64,000 bases of DNA from Hyposmocoma kahamanoa (taxonomy: Eukaryota; Arthropoda; Insecta; Lepidoptera; Cosmopterigidae), in the NCBI RefSeq assembly GCF_003589595.1, contig NW_020653993.1:5805255-5869254 (forward strand), in the 5' to 3' direction. The stretch's first letter is position 1. Every line of letters begins with the position of its first letter. Positions 3,289 to 63,250 of the stretch are shown here, one piece after another. The position numbers were made by a program, and so were the translations under genes. The notes below the pieces were generated by a model. That model saw only the letters and a list, made by a program, of their open reading frames with translations. It made no database searches and was not told where the DNA came from.

Positions 3289-3344
3289 TAAAATATGACG
3301 AGAAAGGACGTGGATTTGCGCTGTTTGGGTTTATAGTTTACTTG

Positions 3345-3561
3345 ACTGCCTCCGTGGCCGAACGGTTACCATACCGGACTGCCACGCAGAGGTCCCAGGT
3401 TCGATTCCCGGGCCGGGAGAAATATTTATATGGCCTACATTTATTTCTCTCGTGAGTTTGGGTGTAATTTGTGGTTGTCTATGTGTGTGTCCATAGCACC
3501 CGCGACACAGGATTTCCCTAGTGCGGGGCTATGTTGAGTGTGTGCGTTATTAAAAAAAAAA
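3345..3561 (+). mobile_element. tRNA-Gly-like SINE (SINE-1), near full length
   Basis: Best reference copy of an ~215-bp SINE. The head reads as a tRNA: box A TGGCCGAACGG, an anticodon-loop region CTGCCACGC as in tRNA-Gly(GCC), and box B GGTTCGATTCC, all correctly spaced for an internal pol III promoter. The body carries GTAATTTGTGGTTGTC and CATAGCACCCGCGACACAG; the tail is GTGTGCGTTATT followed by an A run. Eleven copies or fragments occur in the window on both strands. Mobilisation by a LINE is assumed from the family type; none with a matching tail was identified here. Confidence 0.9.
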
Positions 3562-12360: not shown

Positions 12361-12760
12361 NNNNNNNNNNNNNNNNNNNNNNNNNNNNNNNNNNNNNNNN
12401 NNNNNNNNNNNNNNNNNNNNNNNNNNNNNNNNNNNNNNNNNNNNNNNNNNNNNNNNNNNNNNNNNNNNNNNNNNNNNNNNNNNNNNNNNNNNNNNNNNNN
12501 NNNNNNNNNNNNNNNNNNNNNNNNNNNNNNNNNNNNNNNNNNNNNNNNNNNNNNNNNNNNNNNNNNNNNNNNNNNNNNNNNNNNNNNNNNNNNNNNNNNN
12601 NNNNNNNNNNNNNNNNNNNNNNNNNNNNNNNNNNNNNNNNNNNNNNNNNNNNNNNNNNNNNNNNNNNNNNNNNNNNNNNNNNNNNNNNNNNNNNNNNNNN
12701 NNNNNNNNNNNNNNNNNNNNNNNNNNNNNNNNNNNNNNNNNNNNNNNNNNNNNNNNNNNN
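12361..12760. other. Assembly gap (400 N)
   Basis: Exactly 400 unknown bases; the true length may differ. Any element spanning it cannot be delimited. Confidence 1.
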
Positions 12761-22600: not shown

Positions 22601-23289
22601 CTTAGACTTTGATTTTAAACTTTTATTGTATGCTCTTTTCGTCTTTATAAATAAACTTTATCAGACGCATAAAATGACAAATAAAATAAAAGTTCTATCT
22701 GCATTGCAAAAATGCATAGATTCCTTCGCATGGAATGTTATTTTCTATTTTCTTGGCAACGAAAAGATCCTATATTTTCTCATGACGATAAGAATACTGT
22801 GGAGTTGTGAAAAATCAAGTATTCTCTTATAAATCAAATACAACCAAGACACATTTTCTTGCACATTCATTTCCATTCCCGAATAAATGAATTCTAAAGC
22901 CATACGTAACGTAAAAAATAAAATACTTTCAAATTATTGTCGTTCGTCTTAATAAATACTTGAATAGTGTAACGTATATATTATATATTTATCCAGAGCT
23001 AGCCTGAACAATCGTTCCACGGTCTTGATACCAGGACCACTGCCTGATGTTATAAAGGCGTGATATTTTCCTTCTTCCAACCATCCGCTTCCCAGTTACT
23101 TCGCCCATCATTATGGTATGTGTAGCAGTCACCAGGCGTGCCAGAATGTCGAACACTCTTCCGACATTCAGGCACGTCTTAGTTGCTAACAGTAAGAACA
23201 CGTATCATATAGTATAAATAAGTTTCACAAAATATAATACATCAATCAGTCAGTCATCTACCAACCAACAACACATTCATTTAACTTTT
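22601..23289. other. Unassigned AT-rich DNA
   Basis: A 70-codon reverse frame (22989-23201) has no motif; nothing else recognised. Confidence 0.35.
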
Positions 23290-23515
23290 TAACTGCCTCT
23301 GTAGCCGAACTGTTACCATGCCTGAGTGCCACGCAGAGGTCCTGGGTTCAATTTCCGGGCCGGGAGAAATATTTGTATGGCCTACATTTATTTCTCTCGT
23401 GAGTTTGGGTGTAATTTGTGGTTGTCTATATGTGTGTGTCCATGGCACCCACAACACAGGGTTCCCCTAGTGCGGGGCTATGTTGAGTGTGTGTGTGTGT
23501 TATTATTATTATCAA
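23290..23515 (+). mobile_element. SINE-1, full length
   Basis: Box A TAGCCGAACTG carries substitutions, and box B reads GGTTCAATTTCC, so internal promoter function is doubtful. The tail is expanded: (GT)n then TTATTATTATTAT. A 87-codon frame across it is only the SINE body. Confidence 0.85.
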
Positions 23516-27954: not shown

Positions 27955-28137
27955 TTAACTTCCTCTGTGGTTGAACGGTTACCATGCTGGGTTAAATAGC
28001 TAATAATGCTGGGAGAAATATCTGTATGGCCTACTTCTCACGCGAACTTAGGTGTAATTTGTGGTTGTCTATTATGTATGTCCATGGCACCCGCGATACA
28101 GGGTTTCCCTAATGCGGGGCTATGAGCGTGTGCCTAT
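27955..28137 (+). mobile_element. SINE-1, degraded
   Basis: TTCCTCTGTGGTTGAACGG replaces box A, and the box B region is destroyed (GGGTTAAATAGC), while the body (GTAATTTGTGGTTGTC, CATGGCACCCGCGATACAGG) is intact. Confidence 0.8.
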
Positions 28138-28471: not shown

Positions 28472-28473
28472 TA

Positions 28474-28489
28474 AAGGAGGATGGGCAAA
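28474..28489 (+). repeat. Left terminal inverted repeat
   Basis: AAGGAGGATGGGCAAA, preceded by TA. Transposase recognition end by inference. Confidence 0.9.
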
Positions 28490-29010
28490 TTGGTCCAAAA
28501 TGCAAAAGTCTGCCCCCAGAGCTGACACATAGTGCGTTTGAAAGAGCATTTCAAATTAAAAAAAAAAATTGTATGAGACCGTAAAAATCGAACCTGCAGA
28601 AAAAAAGATATTCAAGTTTTCGAAGTAATTAAAATAAGAATTATTGTTTTTTAAGTCGGCTTATTGGGTTAAACCTGAGATTTTGAAATAGTATTTTATA
28701 CATCGCACTTTTTTGTATGAGATCGTAAAAATACAACCAATATAATATATAACAATCAGGCTTCAATATTAATATTTACTTAGTTGATCTTTTTAGCCCT
28801 TGGCTGTTCAGTGTACACGCTATATAGCAGGTTGAATAATAATCGAAGGAATTGTATTATAAGACCACCAAGCAAACAAATCCCTCTTTTGAGTTCATAC
28901 AAGGATTTTTTAGGCTATTTATTTATAATTTGAAAATATTTATTATGTATTAATAATTATGAGAACGTAGTAACCGTTGCAAGCTTGGTACAAGCCACAT
29001 GCATATTCAC

Positions 29011-29390
29011 TTAAACAATAGGTTGTGCGAGTGAAAAGGCGTTATTAGCCACAAACGCTGGAGCAAGTCACGTGCGTATTCGCTTAAACAATATATTGTG
29101 CGAGTGAGAAGTCGCTAGTCGTTCTAAGCGGCGGAGGAAGTCAAACGGCTTAAACAATAGGTTGTGCGACTGAGAAGGCGTTACTAGCCACAAACGCTGG
29201 TTAAAGCCACGTGCTTATTCGCTTAAACAATAAGTTGTGCGAGTTAGAAGGCGTTACTAGCCATAAACGCTGGTTAAAGCCACGTGCGTATTCGCTTAAA
29301 CAATAGGTTGTGCGAGTGAGAAGACGCTAGTTGTTACAGGCGCTGGAGGAAGTCAAACTGCTTAAACAATAGGTTGTGTGAGTGATAAGG
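29011..29390 (+). repeat. Tandem array upstream of the transposase
   Basis: The anchor TTAAACAAT starts at 29011, 29084, 29150, 29223, 29296 and 29362, giving spacings 73, 66, 73, 73, 66. The 73-bp units read TTACTAGCCACAAACGCTGG and often CACGTG; the 66-bp units read GCGGAGGAAGTCAAAC or CGCTGGAGGAAGTCAAAC. Unit order is A-B-A-A-B. It ends about 270 bp before the predicted ATG, so it could be promoter or subterminal transposase-binding DNA; neither is shown. Confidence 0.9.
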
Positions 29391-29656
29391 GTTCAAGCCT
29401 TTTGAACTTAGACGCGAGTTCGCCTTGAGTGCACGAGCTTAAACCAGAGCTTGCTAGCTTCGCAGTCTTTCTTCAACGCTTGCCGTTTGTAGTTGTGTAC
29501 TGTGCGTTTCGATTTCTTTATTGATTTTGCCGACCAAATCCCGCTTTTGTTTACTGGACATTTCGATTTTGCACTGTGATTTGTGGATTTTGTTGATTTT
29601 ACCAACCTACCCCTGACTTGTTTACCGGATATTTCGAATTCACTTTGTGATTGAAC

Positions 29657-32010
29657 ATGTTTCGCCCTACTGCTGGACATTTGTGTTTATTATGTGAGAG
29701 ATCTGTGCGTTCAAACAGAAGAAGAGCATTGACTCGGCACTTATTCGAAGAATATCCGTTTGCTGCAAGGAACATAACTGAACGTGTTTCTCCTTATGAG
29801 GTTTGTATACTTTAATGAAAGATGATTATCAGATTTTTGCTCTATTATTTACTCAATTTTGAACTCAATGCACTATAGATGATAGTACAATCGTGTCATA
29901 ATGGTGGTTCTGTAACCGAAATGTTTGCATTGAGTAGTAAAATTAACTTTTACATATTTTACACGATATCATTGTCTAACATAGTGATCAGTCCGACTAA
30001 TAGAAGGCGTAATCATCATTGCTGACCCTTAAACGTTTTTATTTTCAGATACAATTGAATGACCAGGAGTTCATTTGCCAATCCTGCTGGCGACGAGAGG
30101 CTTATCCACCACGAAATCGTCGAACCACAGTTTCGTCGGACAATGTGGAGGGACCTGCTGATTATTCTGCCAATCATCCTGTGGAGCAGCAACCTACAGA
30201 ACAACCTGGAAGACAACAAGCAACCATACATCTGTCACACGTTAGTAGACCACCAAATACGTCAATCTCATGCATTTTCTTTGGTTGCCTTCATCACACA
30301 CGCTTTCGAGTGCCTCAATACATGAAAATACGTCTGTTGAATGAGTATAATTATTATATACCACCTGCTGCACGTATATGCCAAGAACATCTGCAATTGA
30401 ATGATTTTGAAGTTTTATCGTCAGCCAGTAACATTAGCCACGAATTCAATGAAGAACAAATCATGGACATAATGAATATTTTAAAATCTGTGCCTCAAGT
30501 GACCCGAAGACTAGATTTTGAAAACATACAAAATATGGATCCCCACGAAGTCTATTTTTTAACAGGGCGAACCATAGAGCAGTTTAATTCTATTTTGGAA
30601 CAAGTGCCATCTTTGGAAAGGACTTGCAACAAATCTAAGACTGCATTGGCTATTTATTTAATTAAGCTTCGGACCGGAGAACCAGACACAAGATTGGCAG
30701 ATATGTTCCATATGAGTAGAAGATCATTGGAAAGACTTCTAAAAACAGCAAAAGATTGCTTATATCAAGATTTTGTGCCACTTCATTTAGGATGGGACCA
30801 CATGACTAGACAGCAAGTTGTGGATAGAAATCTTTATATCCCTACCGCCCTTTTCGGGGACAATTCTGGAGAAGTGGTGAAAGCAATCATTATTTGTGAC
30901 GGCACATACGTGTACATACAAAAAAGTTCAAACTTTTTATTTCAAAGAGTAACATATAGCCACCACAAGTTTCAGAATCTGTTAAAGCCTTTTTTAATAG
31001 TCTGTTGTGATGGTTATATTATTGATGTGACAGGGCCTTACTCAGCTATAACATCCGACGCGACCATTTTAAGTAGCATAATGAACGCCGAAGATAGCGT
31101 TTTTCACTGGTTTTTTAGACAAAATGACGTACTAATATTAGATCGAGGTTTCCGAGATGCTTTACCTGACGTTGAAGCTTGTGGATATGAAGCTTATATG
31201 CCCCTATCTGTGCCAAGAGGTCAAACTCAATTATCAACTATAGATGCGAACAAATCGAGAATGGTGACCATTTGTCGCTGGGTCGTGGAAGTCGTGAACG
31301 GTCGCTTCAAACGCGACTTTAAATTATTTAGACAAGAGTATTTTAACAAAACCTTACTTCACATGCAGGATAATTTTAGAATTGCTGCGGCCATCACCAA
31401 TGCCTTTCACGACCCTATAACAGACAATACAAACGCCCGTGAAATTGTTCATAGAATCAACAACAGAGTAAATACGGAAAACTTGCTAGCGGAATATGTG
31501 ATTGGCGAAAACCTCAACAATAGACGTGTGCATTTTCAAAGTATGTCTGCAGAATTACCAGAGCTCCATGATTTTCCCCGTTTCACTGAGAGCGACTTAA
31601 TAATGTTTTCATTAGGGACGTATCAAATAAAACTTGCCAGAAGTTATTACGCCGAACATGCAAGAAATGGCATTTATAGTATTGAAATATATAGAGATAC
31701 TGAAGATTTAACCAATATTTTAAATAATTATAATATAGTTGGTAATAACTTCTGGTTACTTAGGGGAAGAATAAAATCAAGACATACAAGAAGTCGCACA
31801 TATTATACATATATTTTAATAAACTTAGACAAACAGGGATTGGAAGCTTTGGAACATTATTATTGTTCATGTAAAAGCGGCAGGCGTACTTTAGGTTCTT
31901 GCTCACATACAATGTCTATTGTGTGGTTTCTAGGATGGGCGCGCTACGATAATATTAGCCATCCAGCAGCATTTTTAGATTCTATTATTGTAGATGATGA
32001 TGTTCCATGA
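29657..32010 (+). CDS. DDE transposase with multiple zinc modules (two exons, ~701 aa)
   Basis: Exon 1 is 29657-29800, intron 29801-29800+248 (to 30048), exon 2 30049-32010. The donor is GAG|GTTTGT and the acceptor is TTTTATTTTCAG, both phase 0. Without exon 1 the first in-frame ATG (30322) would cut a zinc finger in half. Domains: residues 10-61, C-x2-C...C-x2-C module (HLCLLC in exon 1, FICQSCW in exon 2), ZAD-like; residues 123-162, C-x4-C-x30-C-x2-H, THAP-like finger; residues 330-465, DDE core with D332 (IICDGTYVYI), D413 (LILDRGF) and E462 (RWVVEVVNGRFKRDF); residues 654-668, C-x-C-x9-C-x-H SWIM-type finger near the C-terminus. It would cut and join element ends in the nucleus. All three catalytic acids are present with no frameshift or stop. 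Family-level function is confident; exact superfamily is not. The start ATG is the only one in exon 1 giving the first cysteine pair. Confidence 0.87.
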
Positions 32011-32031
32011 CCTTTATGTACCCTTTTAAAA

Positions 32032-32037
32032 AATAAA
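32032..32037 (+). promoter_or_regulatory. Poly(A) signal of the transposase transcript
   Basis: AATAAA 22 bp after the TGA stop. A T-rich stretch follows at 32055-32090. Confidence 0.65.
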
Positions 32038-32382
32038 ACGTGTATAAAACCAAACCTTTGCATTTTTATTTAATATTATTTTTCAATAACCTATAATTGT
32101 TTATTTTTAATTACTATATGGTATATTCTTTATTTTCATTAGTTTGTGTAACATTGTTTTTCAAGCATCATACATAAAACATATTAATTGTTACAATTGT
32201 TGTATGGTAAAACTAGATTTTGACGAACTTTTCTTTTCTAAAAACCGAAAATGTAACACTAAATATCTCAGCTACTGCGGGTTAGAATTCAATGAGATTT
32301 AACATACAGAGGTCTGTGAACGTATTGTATCAGTTAGCGCTAGTGTCAAATTTGGGAGCATTTGGACCAACTCCCATACAAT

Positions 32383-32398
32383 TTTGCCCATCCTCCTT
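32383..32398 (-). repeat. Right terminal inverted repeat
   Basis: Exact complement of the left 16 bp, followed by TA. Confidence 0.9.
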
Positions 32399-32434
32399 TA
32401 AAGGCCCAGCTAGCGAGCAGGGGCACTAAATGTG

Positions 32435-36549: not shown

Positions 36550-37668
36550 AATTTACGCTAGATATTTATAATATGTGTTATAACTGGCGCAATGTCCTCC
36601 AATACAGGAAGAATCAAGTCAAGGCTCAAATTGTCACTGCCGATGGCCTTGGTGGAGATAGAGCGGATACTTTTCTTTACAAGATCCTCTGAGATGATCT
36701 TAAAAGTGAAAAGGATACAATAAGGTGTGATAAGATTAGAAAGACATGTAAGAGTATTAGATTTAGTAAGATGGTTAAGGATGACTGGCGGAGTAGAAAA
36801 ATGGGAGTTCAAGGAATTGAGATCTACGTTGTTACGGCAAGCATCCACAGAAGACTTGCCTACACCAATCGAGTGCAGAAATTTCCATACCTGAGCCTGG
36901 GAGAGATCTTGAATAGACGAAAGAATGTAGCGACGTTTAACATCCCTACACATTCTGTTGCAGAGATTTCGTAATTTTTTGTAAACGTCGAGATTCTCTG
37001 CAGAAGGTTCAAGTTTTAGACGGCACTTGGCTTTGTCACGCTTCGTCACAATTCTTCTGATCTCAGGTGAGAGCAAGGGTGCCGGCGCGCGTTTGACTCG
37101 GACTGGCCGTACAGGTGCATGAAAATCATAAACTTTCACTAACTCAGTGTTAAGAATATCAACCTTTACATCAATATTTTCTGACGAAAATAGCACAGAC
37201 TAGACAATACAGCTAATATCCTCTCTCAAACAATCAAAACCTATATGAAATTGCGCAAGAGAAGGACGTTTCCCTTAACCTTAGGTGAACGCACTCTGTA
37301 AGAGAGATAAATTAGGTCGTGATATGAGAAAGGAGGACTCATCTGTCCAGGCGAAATGGCCAGTTTGGGGTGTGAAATTATCATTAAATCGATCAGGGAA
37401 GGTCTGCTGTTAGGGAAGTAATGGGTCGGTTTTAGTGTCCTCAAAACTTTCAGATCAAGCGCCGACGTCAGATCTGATAACTTATCGGATCGATTGTCAT
37501 TTTTGAGAAGACAAGTATTTAGATCACCCATAAGAATGACGTGATCAAAAAGGGTACCTAGGTTGTCAAGACTACTGTCCAAGATGTTGAAATAATCTGT
37601 TTTGTCGTTAGGGCTACACAAAACACCAACCAGGATTTTTTTGTGATGAACTATAACATTTATATGTT
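36550..37668 (-). pseudogene. LINE endonuclease and RT N-terminal region, broken
   Basis: Reverse strand. From 37668: KILVGVLCSPND, VILMGDLNTCLL (the GDxN motif of AP-like endonucleases), SLIDLMIISHPKL and YHDLIYLSYRV (HD motif), then a break at 37197-37240. The next frame (37196-36558) reads DFHAPVRPVRVKRAPAPLLS, IRRIVTKRDKAK, VWKFLHSIGVG and IISEDLVKKSIRSI plus SDNLSLDLILPVLEDI, the linker and start of the RT domain. The RT catalytic core is absent. One of the few 5'-side LINE pieces in the window; jockey/CR1-like by overall pattern. Confidence 0.8.
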
Positions 37669-37926
37669 TGTGTTTTGATTTTTACTTAATGTCATTAGTA
37701 TTACATTACGTATTTCATAGCTTTAATGTTTTATGTGTGTACTACAAAAATAGCCAATACTTCAGGTAGGTAAATATTCAATCGTGCTTAAATTGAATCG
37801 TACTTACAAAAACGTTACCTAATCTATGGTGGAACTGAATCAATTGCGTTGTGTTCTTCCATCTATTCTAAAATACAATGTTTTACAATTTATTTATTAT
37901 ACAGATTTTAAACTTTATAAACACTG

Positions 37927-51186: not shown

Positions 51187-51470
51187 CATTGACTTACAAA
51201 TAAATGGACTACGGGTCTAAAACAAAAACCACGAAAAAAATGTCCCAAGTCAACCTATTTAAACGTAGTGACATGTAAAGGAATATGAAAAAGCTAAAAC
51301 GTTGAATTTAAATTGTAATGTCATCGCAGTACTGTCTAATTTTGCTTGCTTCGCTGTCAGTCGAACAAACGAAGACTAAAGCGTGAATGACGCTCTGTAT
51401 ACGATTTTAACGCCCTGTAAGTTCGGACACTTTAGCGCGGACCCGACGTCCATATAATTGTAAGTCAATG
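51187..51470 (-). mobile_element. hAT-like MITE, copy 2 (inverted relative to copy 1)
   Basis: Exact 8-bp duplication CACAGTCG at 51179-51186 and 51471-51478. 284 bp; interior CAAGCAAAATTAGACAGTAC (on the reverse strand) matches the copies at 60867 and 61743. Confidence 0.92.
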
Positions 51471-52840: not shown

Positions 52841-53026
52841 AAAATAAGTACACCCGTAGGAGAAAACAAACAGACGCATACACGAAGGCTAAATCCACTC
52901 TTCAAGGGTCGGGGGTGAAAAACCAAGCTAGAACATTATAAAAGAATATTCACATGTTATTCTTAAACTTTCTCATTAAAGAACACATAATTACAGCTGA
53001 ACAGTGGATCTTTATGATTTAAATTC

Positions 53027-53232
53027 AACTGCCTCCGTGGCCGAACGGTTACAATGCCGGACTACCACGCAAAGGTCCCAGGTCCGATACCCGGGCCGGG
53101 AGAAATGTTTGTATGGCCTACATTTATTTCTCTCGTGAGTTTGGGTGTAATTTGTGATTGTCTATCTGTGTGTCCATGGCACCCGTGACACAGGGTTTCC
53201 CTAGTACGGGACTATGTTGAGTGCGTGTGTAA
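53027..53232 (+). mobile_element. SINE-1, full length
   Basis: Box A TGGCCGAACGG is intact and box B is GGTCCGATACC (two changes). Tail ends in AATTTATTTATTTTA. Confidence 0.88.
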
Positions 53233-53249
53233 TTTATTTATTTTATTTA

Positions 53250-55160: not shown

Positions 55161-55313
55161 TAAATACTTCACTGGTTTGTTATTGTCATTGATAGAGAGA
55201 TCGAACACTTAGAAAAAATTCGTTCGATCCGGCCGGATCCGAACCGACGTCTTCTAACATACCTTGCCAGACACTTTACCAACTAAGCCACGGAACGAAC
55301 CAGCGGACCTCAC
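55161..55313 (-). mobile_element. SINE-2, most complete copy, inverted
   Basis: Reverse strand: box A TGGCTTAGTTGG, AAAGTGTCTGGCAAGGTATG, box B GGTTCGGATCC, GGCCGGATCGAACGAATTTT and the tail GATCTCTCTATCAATGACAA then CAAACCAGTGAAGTATTT. Defines the family as tRNA-derived. Confidence 0.8.
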
Positions 55314-55437: not shown

Positions 55438-55653
55438 ATAATAATAACAATAACGCAAACACTCAACATATCCCCACACTGGGGAAATCGTGTGTCGCGG
55501 GTGCCATAGACACAGATAAACAACCACAAATTACACCCAAACTCACGAGAGAAATAAATGTAGGCCATACAAACATTTCTCCCGACCCGGGAATTGAACC
55601 TGGGACCTCTGCGTGGTAGTCCAGCATAGTAACCGTTCGATCACGGAGGCAGT
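55438..55653 (-). mobile_element. SINE-1, inverted, full length
   Basis: Box B GGTTCAATTCC; box A TGATCGAACGG. Inserted immediately upstream of the LINE-tail block 55655-55800. Confidence 0.88.
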
Positions 55654-59605: not shown

Positions 59606-60040
59606 ATTGATTTTTATATAATTTTATTAAGAGTTTTAATTTTAGTTTTAGGAGTATTAATTGGTACAGCTTTTTTAACTCTTTTAGAACGGAAAGTTTT
59701 AGGTTATATTCAAATTCGAAAAGGACCTAATAAATTCGACTGGCTCCGTGGCCGAACGGTTACCATGCCGGACTGCCATGCAGAGGTCCTAGGTTTGGAT
59801 TCCCAGGCCGGGAGAAATATGTGTATGGCCTACATTTATTTCTCTCGTGAGTTTGGATGTAATTTGTGGTTGTCTATGTGTGTGTTTGTCCATGGCACCC
59901 GCGACACAGGGTTTCCCTGGTGCGGGGCTATGTTGAGTGTGTGCGTTATTATTATTATTATAAATTAGGAATTATAGGAATTTTGCAACTTTTTTCAGAT
60001 GCTATTAAATAATTTACTAAAGATGTAGTTTAGTTTTCTT
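59606..60040 (+). pseudogene. nad1: Mitochondrial nad1 5' part (NUMT) with SINE inside
   Basis: From ATT 59606 the frame reads IDFYIILLRVLILVLGVLIG, then TAFLTLLERKVLGYIQIRKG and PNK up to the SINE at 59737. It resumes after the second ATAAATT (59960-59966) as LGIMGILQLFSDAIK, then a stop (TAA 60010-60012, where TTA Leu is expected) and FTKD. The LLERK-x-LGYIQ-x-RKGPNK motif is diagnostic of NADH dehydrogenase subunit 1. It covers roughly the first quarter of the protein. Confidence 0.9.
59737..59959 (+). mobile_element. SINE-1 inserted in the nad1 NUMT
   Basis: Box A TGGCCGAACGG intact, box B GGTTTGGATTCC; tail TTATTATTATT. Bounded by the 7-bp direct repeat ATAAATT (59730-59736 and 59960-59966). 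Deleting the SINE plus one repeat restores the nad1 reading frame exactly. Confidence 0.95.
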
Positions 60041-60866: not shown

Positions 60867-61152
60867 CATTGACTTACAATTATATGGACGTCGGGTCCGC
60901 GCTAAAAAGTGTCCGAACTTATAGGGCGTTAAAATCGTACACACAGCGTCATTCACGCTTTAGTCTTCGTTTGTTCGACTGACAGCGAAGCAAGCAAAAT
61001 TAGACAGTACTGCGATGACATTACAATTTAAATTCAACGTTTCAGCTTTTTCATATACCTTTAGATGTCACTAAGTTTAAATAGGTTGACTTGGAACATT
61101 TTTTTAGTGGTTTTTGTATTAGACCCGTCGTCCATTTATTTGTAAGTCAATG
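60867..61152 (+). mobile_element. hAT-like MITE, copy 3
   Basis: Exact 8-bp duplication TTTAAAAT at 60859-60866 and 61153-61160. 286 bp; interior CAAGCAAAATTAGACAGTAC intact. Confidence 0.93.
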
Positions 61153-61742
61153 TTTAAAATGATTGGACAACAGCGAAAACAAAAAATCATAGGTAAATAA
61201 ATCTTTATAATCAATCCAACATTTTCGTTTAGTATCCTCACCTTTTGATAAGTGTCAACTGTCAAATGTGGAAAAACATAGAAAAAATATTTATTATATT
61301 ATTTTCAAAATGGACCTAACACTATACAAGAACGACCGTTGTGCCTGGGGGGTTAGAACACGGTGACGGACTATGATAATGAATAATAAAAGGTATTTCA
61401 GTCAATTATACCCAGCCAGTTTGTTGTAGCTATTAATTTCTTCTATAATGATATCACGAAAGTAACAAGTAAAGTTACTCCTAACAAAAGGAAAAAGGAA
61501 ACTAAAGTTACATCCCCTTACATCCTATGTTCTTTATCGAACTTTTAAAAAGGATTTATCTATGTAAATCTTAAGCTATTTCAATTTAGAACTTTAAATT
61601 GAAAAAGGTTCGCTCTAAGCCGCACGTTTTCAATTTCTGATTCTGCGCTGTTTCGATGTTAAAATCCTTTTGATTTTATGCAAATTTTATATACATTTCT
61701 CGGATACGAATCGGGCGTAGCGCGCAAACATTCCTAGGTGTC
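61153..61742. other. Unassigned AT-rich DNA between two MITE copies
   Basis: No gene or repeat recognised. Confidence 0.35.
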
Positions 61743-62028
61743 CATTGACTTACAATTATGTGGACGTCGGGTCCGCGCTAAAAAGTGTCCGAACTTATAG
61801 AGCGTTAATATCGTATACAGAGCGTCATTTACGTTCTAGTCTCCGTTTGTTCGACTGACAGCGAAGCAAGCAAAATTAGACAGTACTGCGATGATATTAC
61901 AATTTAAATTCAACGTTTTAGCTTTTTCATATTCCTTGACATGTCACTACGCTTAAATAGGTTGACTTGGGACATTTTTTTCGTGGTTTTTGTATTAGAC
62001 CCGTCGTCTATTTATTTGTAAACCAATG
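61743..62028 (+). mobile_element. hAT-like MITE, copy 4
   Basis: Exact 8-bp duplication TAGGTGTC at 61735-61742 and 62029-62036. The right end has drifted (TTGTAAACCAATG). Confidence 0.93.
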
Positions 62029-62111
62029 TAGGTGTCAGTAAAAAAAAAACTTACATGTCGTTGCTAAACATGGTAACCGTGATGGCAATGCACGTACTTA
62101 ATTTTATAATT

Positions 62112-62545: not shown

Positions 62546-62817
62546 TCTGTACTGAGATTATGTCATCTCTTTTCGGTCTATACCTCATATTATAGGTTTT
62601 TAAACTTTAGTGTTGCATTTTATTTAAATTACGGGGATAGACGCGATAAAACCAGTCAAGTAGTTATACTCTATCTATTATTAAGACTGAGTAAAATAAC
62701 ATTTGCAGGGTTGTCAGTTTTCATAAAATTTTTAACAGCCATGTAGTTGTTGTCGATAGTTGTATCGATAGATTGTGAAAGCAGGTAAAATTTTGCCAAA
62801 CAACAACAAACAACAAC

Positions 62818-63022
62818 AACGCACACACTCAACATAGCCCCGCACTAGGGAAACCCTGTGTCGCGGGTGCCATGGACACATACATAGACAAACACAAATT
62901 ACACCCAAACTCACGAGAGAAATAAATGTAGGCCATACAAATATTTCTCCCGGCCCGGGAATCGAACTTAGGACCTCTGCGTGTCAGTCCGGCATGGTAA
63001 CCGTTCGGCCACTGAGGCAGTT
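62818..63022 (-). mobile_element. SINE-1, inverted, full length
   Basis: Box A TGGCCGAACGG, box B AGTTCGATTCC. Preceded (3' side) by an AAC-rich stretch. Confidence 0.9.
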
Positions 63023-63250
63023 AAACATGTCTGAATGTGAATGTTAAGACGTTCTAATAATTATTAATTGCATTATTGTCTTCATCATTCTTAACAGTTG
63101 GCCTACTTATATTGAAATCAAATTTTATTCATATTTTGTGACGTGATTATCTATTTGAATAAAAATGAAAAATTAAATTAAATATTTTAATTTAATTTTA
63201 TAACATGTCGCCTTTTCGTATTTTTAACAGACATAGTTAAATAAATAAAT

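Follow-up and report, generated by a model that had tools for sequence, protein, structure and literature searches.

A probable Spy-group DNA transposon with an apparently intact transposase gene in Hyposmocoma kahamanoa

Spy transposons are described as lying between AAA and TTT without a target-site duplication (TSD), with one open reading frame (ORF) of about 700 amino acids and terminal inverted repeats (TIRs) of 5-691 bp (PMC11304231, PMC4482050), and their transposases as having a DDE domain together with a DNA-binding or helix-turn-helix (HTH) domain (PMC11304231). Their sister clade is ISL2EU (PMC11304231), for which an AT duplication within AATT (A-AT-T), TIRs usually starting with GG, in most cases a YqaJ ORF, and transposases with THAP, HTH and DDE domains are reported (PMC4482050). 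PIF/Harbinger elements duplicate TWA and mostly carry a second, Myb/SANT ORF, and the TSDs given for the various PHIS groups are TWA, AT, ANT, CWG and TNA (PMC4482050). What is cited from these two papers, here and below, refers to excerpts of them. Here, we describe a window of 64,000 nucleotides, meaning the whole stretch analysed, from the lepidopteran Hyposmocoma kahamanoa (contig NW_020653993.1, positions 5,805,255 to 5,869,254), of which positions 28476-32396 are probably a full-length, apparently coding-intact cut-and-paste transposon of the Spy group (PHIS/Harbinger-like), inserted into AAATTT without duplication.

The transposase gene and its protein family

The element is 3.9 kb long (28474-32398 if its ends are read as 16 bp) and has inverted ends, one gene of two exons and a poly(A) signal (AATAAA, 32032-32037, plus strand). 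Exon 1 (29657-29800, plus strand) starts with the ATG at 29657 and has 48 codons, including those of the cysteine pair C10 and C13, followed by a GT..AG intron of 248 bp in phase 0 (29801-30048, plus strand) and by exon 2 with 653 codons and a stop (30049-32010, plus strand). The junction 29800/30049 is in phase, and the spliced product has 701 amino acids. For exon 2, the probability of 653 codons remaining free of stops by chance is about 1e-20 at its base composition. No second long ORF was found in the element, in which the other ORFs reach at most 92 amino acids (antisense) and 88 amino acids (within exon 2, in another frame).

Three protein searches at E ≤ 0.001 gave 249, 464 and 200 proteins, and the relatives considered here come from the best 120 matches of each, most of them listed without an organism name; among these listed matches, all that carry such a name are, as we take it, lepidopteran. 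The closest of them is P0001 from Euphydryas editha, with 81% identity, or 84% over 633 alignment columns. The main alignment contains 143 relatives, the alignments A1 and A2 contain 42 and 39 of 120 proteins, and 25 proteins (P0144-P0168) are in no alignment. Relatives were not confirmed in any viral contig or prokaryote genome contig, no exact match to the end pattern was found in viral contigs, and a search of plasmids with exon 2 gave no near match.

The intron is deduced from the sequence and from the alignment of relatives. Residues upstream of the exon 2 boundary are present in 79 of the 143 aligned relatives, and 24 of these 79 finish in Q right there, in most cases behind a hydrophobic stretch, for example FLFQ or FLLFQ. 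Such an ending reads like a translated, unspliced pyrimidine tract plus CAG, and in this way supports the splice; P0013, one of the 24, is an annotated full-length protein and gives no evidence for an unspliced tract. P0001 and P0034 are examples of annotated proteins of the family with the joined exon form. As only one of the 93 columns that are conserved to at least 95% in the main alignment deviates in the window copy (K for R), this copy looks coding-intact.

The protein matches the Pfam family DDE_Tnp_4 with an E-value of 2.7e-14 and 53.5 bits, compared with a curated cut-off of 24.8. The DDE domain is encoded by 30898-31401 (plus strand), and the triad D332 (at 30898), D413 (at 31141) and E462 (at 31288) lies inside this match and is conserved across the relatives. 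For the structure model, an RNase H-like fold is predicted, and a Foldseek search against BFVD gave eight matches at E ≤ 0.001, which bear the names of transposases from giant or large algal viruses; the Foldseek searches were dominated by the DDE domain and are uninformative on the zinc-binding motifs. An HTH_Tnp_4-like HTH (30655-30774, plus strand; E 0.0041, 17.1 bits) remains under the Pfam cut-off of 27, and HTH_Tnp_4 was detected at E ≤ 0.1 in 34 of 39 relatives. The only match of a PDB sequence search (E 0.65) is not meaningful, and in NCBIfam there was no match for exon 2 of the window copy, with P0008 giving matches only below the cut-off. A preliminary description, made from the DNA letters, had proposed a complete transposon with an IS5/PIF-like DDE transposase and zinc-binding motifs, and had named missing similarity to DDE transposases as evidence against itself. 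The similarity is present, and the description was right about the complete DNA transposon, its apparently intact transposase of the IS5/PIF-like (DDE_Tnp_4) type and its zinc-binding motifs, the acidic triad, the stop-free frame, the in-phase splice and the poly(A) signal; the young age that it supposed is a guess.

Three motifs have zinc-binding residue patterns. The N-terminal C2-C2 motif (C10, C13, C58, C61; 29684-30087, plus strand) is split by the intron and possibly ZAD-like; its Pfam matches stay below threshold, with zf-C2H2_12 (E 0.12) and DUF7562 (E 0.7) for the N-terminal piece of the window copy and zf-AD (E 0.22) in the relative P0063. The C2CH motif (C123, C128, C159, H162; 30271-30390, plus strand) lies in a region modelled as short strand, helix and short strand, and its residues are conserved in the family; it has a spacing that we take to be THAP-like, and THAP is absent from the 24 Pfam families matched by 39 relatives. 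The SWIM-type motif C654-x-C656-x9-C666-x-H668 (31864-31908, plus strand) was recognized as a pattern, and this CxCxnCxH pattern is found in 119 of 120 relatives; its four residues are kept in 143, 143, 142 and 142 relatives, which is every alignment row with letters at these positions. Some relatives are named "SWIM-type domain-containing" in public databases. Pfam SWIM was found only in relatives and below its cut-off, at E ≤ 0.1 in 4 of 39 of them, the best match being a piece of P0118 (E 0.0012, 18.7 bits, cut-off 19.6), and it was absent from pieces of the window copy, P0008 and P0063. The profile search that the preliminary description had suggested thus recovered DDE_Tnp_4, and for the window copy no THAP, ZAD or SWIM match at E ≤ 1 with the whole protein or at E ≤ 5 in pieces. 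The same description had regarded the combination of C2-C2, C2CH, DDE and SWIM as unusual: all four residue sets are present, but they are conserved family-wide, and we therefore rejected the idea of a module set special to this copy. As a separate observation by pattern only, P0078, P0089, P0118 and others repeat the CxxC..CxxC arrangement in another stretch, some 70-80 residues past the first.

Ends and insertion site

The 14-bp motif GGAGGATGGGCAAA forms the left TIR (28476-28489, plus strand) and the right TIR (32383-32396, minus strand). Its only two exact copies in the window are these two, in opposite orientation, and with up to two mismatches there are four matches, the two ends included, compared with 0.20 expected, so that the motif is well above chance frequency. 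Behind it, both ends have further blocks in common, chiefly TTGGTCCAAA (28490-28499, plus strand; 32361-32370, minus strand), which on the right side is 12 bases deeper. A comparison of the two 120-base ends gave a similarity score of 64.4, compared with 49.4 for the best of 2000 shuffles; when the first 14 bases were left out, the score was reached by 10 of 2000 shuffles, and the inner shared part is therefore less certain. The 5' non-coding part of the element also contains an array of diverged direct repeats of about 73 bp (28992-29390, plus strand).

The inverted ends continue perfectly beyond these 14 bp, to 16 bp at 28474/32398, as the preliminary description had noted, and to 18 bp at 28472/32400. 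We slid the border outward by offsets of 0-6 and compared the flanks for a target duplication. AAA/TTT flanks without duplication fit the 14-bp ends, a TA duplication fits the 16-bp ends and AAG, the sole 3-bp repeat at these offsets, fits the 18-bp ends; a 1-bp A repeat occurs at an offset without inverted ends. AT, TWA and ANT duplications were ruled out over the same range. With the 14-bp ends, the flanks are exactly AAA (28473-28475) and TTT (32397-32399), the two target halves under the Spy flank rule (PMC11304231). Most likely, the locus is to be read as AAA, the element from GGAGGATGGGCAAA to TTTGCCCATCCTCC, and TTT, inserted into AAATTT without target duplication. AAATTT is a palindrome, and insertion at its middle lengthens the apparent inverted repeats by three bases; as the neighbouring T and A extend them beyond AAA/TTT, the TA flanks are explained without any further assumption. 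The empty site would have GTCAAAGTAAA joined to TTTAAAGGCCC for AAATTT, GTCAAAGTA joined to AAGGCCCAG for TA, and GTCAAAG joined to GCCCAG for AAG; within the window, no empty site was found with the joined flanks.

An ISL2EU-like or other TA-inserting Harbinger-like element, with 16-bp ends (AAGGAGG...) between duplicated TA and the empty site GTAAATTTAAAGG, has a small but appreciable probability. TA does flank 28474-32398 on either side, Spy and ISL2EU are sister clades (PMC11304231), and the THAP, HTH and DDE domains and GG-starting TIRs of ISL2EU (PMC4482050) have counterparts here, the latter if the ends are 14 bp. However, the duplication of ISL2EU is AT, which fits at none of the offsets 0-6, most autonomous ISL2EU elements have a second, YqaJ ORF, and none of that size is in the element, and the AAATTT target already accounts for the extra inverted bases and hence for TA. 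The TA noted in the preliminary description is thus really there, but other cuts fit as well and TA is probably the wrong target, and the candidacy of ISL2EU, which that description had raised, is probably wrong in view of the missing AT duplication and second long ORF.

Very improbable is a domesticated host gene that derives from such a transposase and is no longer mobile. What would suit it is that only one copy was seen, with no second one elsewhere in the 64-kb window or in 210 kb of sampled genome sequence (of which 4,004 bases are N), and that plain gene annotations are common among the relatives. Against this, the element retains its two terminal repeats as well as the catalytic residues, and Euphydryas editha has several diverged family members (P0001, P0008, P0013, P0127), as transposons would. 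An AAG duplication around perfect 18-bp ends TAAAGGAGGATGGGCAAA is likewise very improbable, for although AAG stands before and after them, it is not among the PHIS TSDs in the excerpted PMC4482050 (TWA, AT, ANT, CWG, TNA), and a 3-base match at one offset is expected by chance about once in 50 from base composition, with seven offsets tried.

Neighbouring features of the window

Two adjoining ORFs at 36558-37681 (minus strand) resemble pieces of a retrotransposon without long terminal repeats: the ORF at 37241-37681 (minus strand) matches Exo_endo_phos_2 (E 1.5e-06), and Pfam gave nothing at E ≤ 0.001 for that at 36558-37199 (minus strand). A tRNA-like sequence at 55222-55298 (minus strand) was called tRNA-Thr with anticodon GGT by ARAGORN and scored 41.9 bits with the Rfam tRNA model. 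As a GGT anticodon is unusual for eukaryotic tRNA-Thr, this sequence may be a tRNA-derived short interspersed element. Copies of a repeat of about 210 bp with 84-94% identity are at 3342-3551, 23288-23507, 53024-53234, 55443-55653, 59739-59956 and 62809-63025, and a portion of this repeat has a further match next to the element, at about 28008-28133. A repeat of about 287 bp is present at 51187-51470, 60867-61153 and 61743-62029, with 93-95% mutual identity, and as a diverged fourth copy at 205-446 (71-74% identity). Exactly 400 N in a row at 12361-12760 are probably an assembly gap.

Placement and comparison with described transposons

The flanks and the single gene together agree with just one of these published group descriptions, that of Spy, as judged from the sequence of this locus. 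Spy is likelier than ISL2EU because there is one ORF of about 700 amino acids, no AT duplication and no second long ORF. Several points weigh against this placement. The AAATTT interpretation stands on one insertion and the literature, and both a TA duplication with 16-bp ends and an AAG duplication with 18-bp ends fit as well. The excerpted descriptions of Spy mention no C2-C2, C2CH, SWIM or THAP motif, and the GG start of the 14-bp ends together with the THAP-like motif are features of ISL2EU (PMC4482050). For neither of the two models did Foldseek give a PDB match at E ≤ 0.001, Mos1 and piggyBac being at the top. Membership in the Spy group is probable, derived from flanks and gene layout that were compared by description; the tree comprises the family alone (the window protein and 132 of the 143 relatives).

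The ends, the coding capacity, the conserved catalytic and zinc-binding residues and the predicted DDE fold are shown here, and from known DDE transposases a mechanism can be proposed. A single spliced mRNA would give the sole protein encoded, and this transposase would bind the bipartite terminal repeats, GGAGGATGGGCAAA and then TTGGTCCAAA inward, via its HTH and its C2CH and C2-C2 modules. Its RNase H-like centre of D332, D413 and E462 would excise the element, which would enter an AAATTT target between its AAA and its TTT, joined with no stagger and hence without target duplication. What the C2-C2, C2CH and SWIM motifs do is a matter of guesswork, with DNA binding likeliest for the first two, and as a guess the SWIM motif probably contributes to the grip on DNA or on a partner subunit.

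It is a rather unlikely proposition that Spy-type transposases as a group have an undescribed C2-C2/C2CH/HTH/DDE/SWIM architecture, the zinc modules of which enable the flush joining at AAATTT. In the literature searched, which did not include the original Spy description, we found no zinc or SWIM motifs described for Spy, and THAP as the sole motif of this kind in ISL2EU; the five-part architecture may well already stand in that original description. Among these papers, SWIM and THAP were looked for in PMC8697882, where they appear in the reference list alone, PMC4482050, PMC9179366 and PMC11304231. The element is a further member of a known group and, apart from its rich set of zinc-binding motifs, largely an ordinary transposon. 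It adds a lepidopteran example with defined ends, intron and zinc motifs, and makes the duplication-free insertion by a DDE enzyme a testable question. Interest in intact natural Spy elements is also practical, since two of them, cgSpy and cvSpy, showed activity in human cells (PMC11304231).

With Spy elements such as cgSpy from Colletes gigas and ldSpy from Lymantria dispar (PMC11304231), as compared by description, the element shares, in its most likely reading, the AAA/TTT flanks without TSD, and furthermore the one gene for about 700 amino acids, the total length, the short TIR, the combination of DDE and HTH and the insect host; it differs in that its gene has an intron. With ISL2EU, it has in common a DDE_Tnp_4-type transposase, the HTH, the THAP-like C2CH motif and, if the 14-bp ends hold, the GG start, but it lacks an AT duplication at offsets 0-6 and a second ORF of YqaJ size. 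PIF/Harbinger and IS5 elements have the same DDE_Tnp_4 domain and HTH_Tnp_4-like HTH, whereas here neither a TWA nor an ANT duplication fits and a second ORF of Myb/SANT size is absent. The lepidopteran "SWIM-type/DDE Tnp4 domain-containing" proteins such as P0001 have the same DDE, C2CH and SWIM residues, and the annotated N-terminus of P0001 differs from that of the element's transposase in lacking the first cysteine pair.
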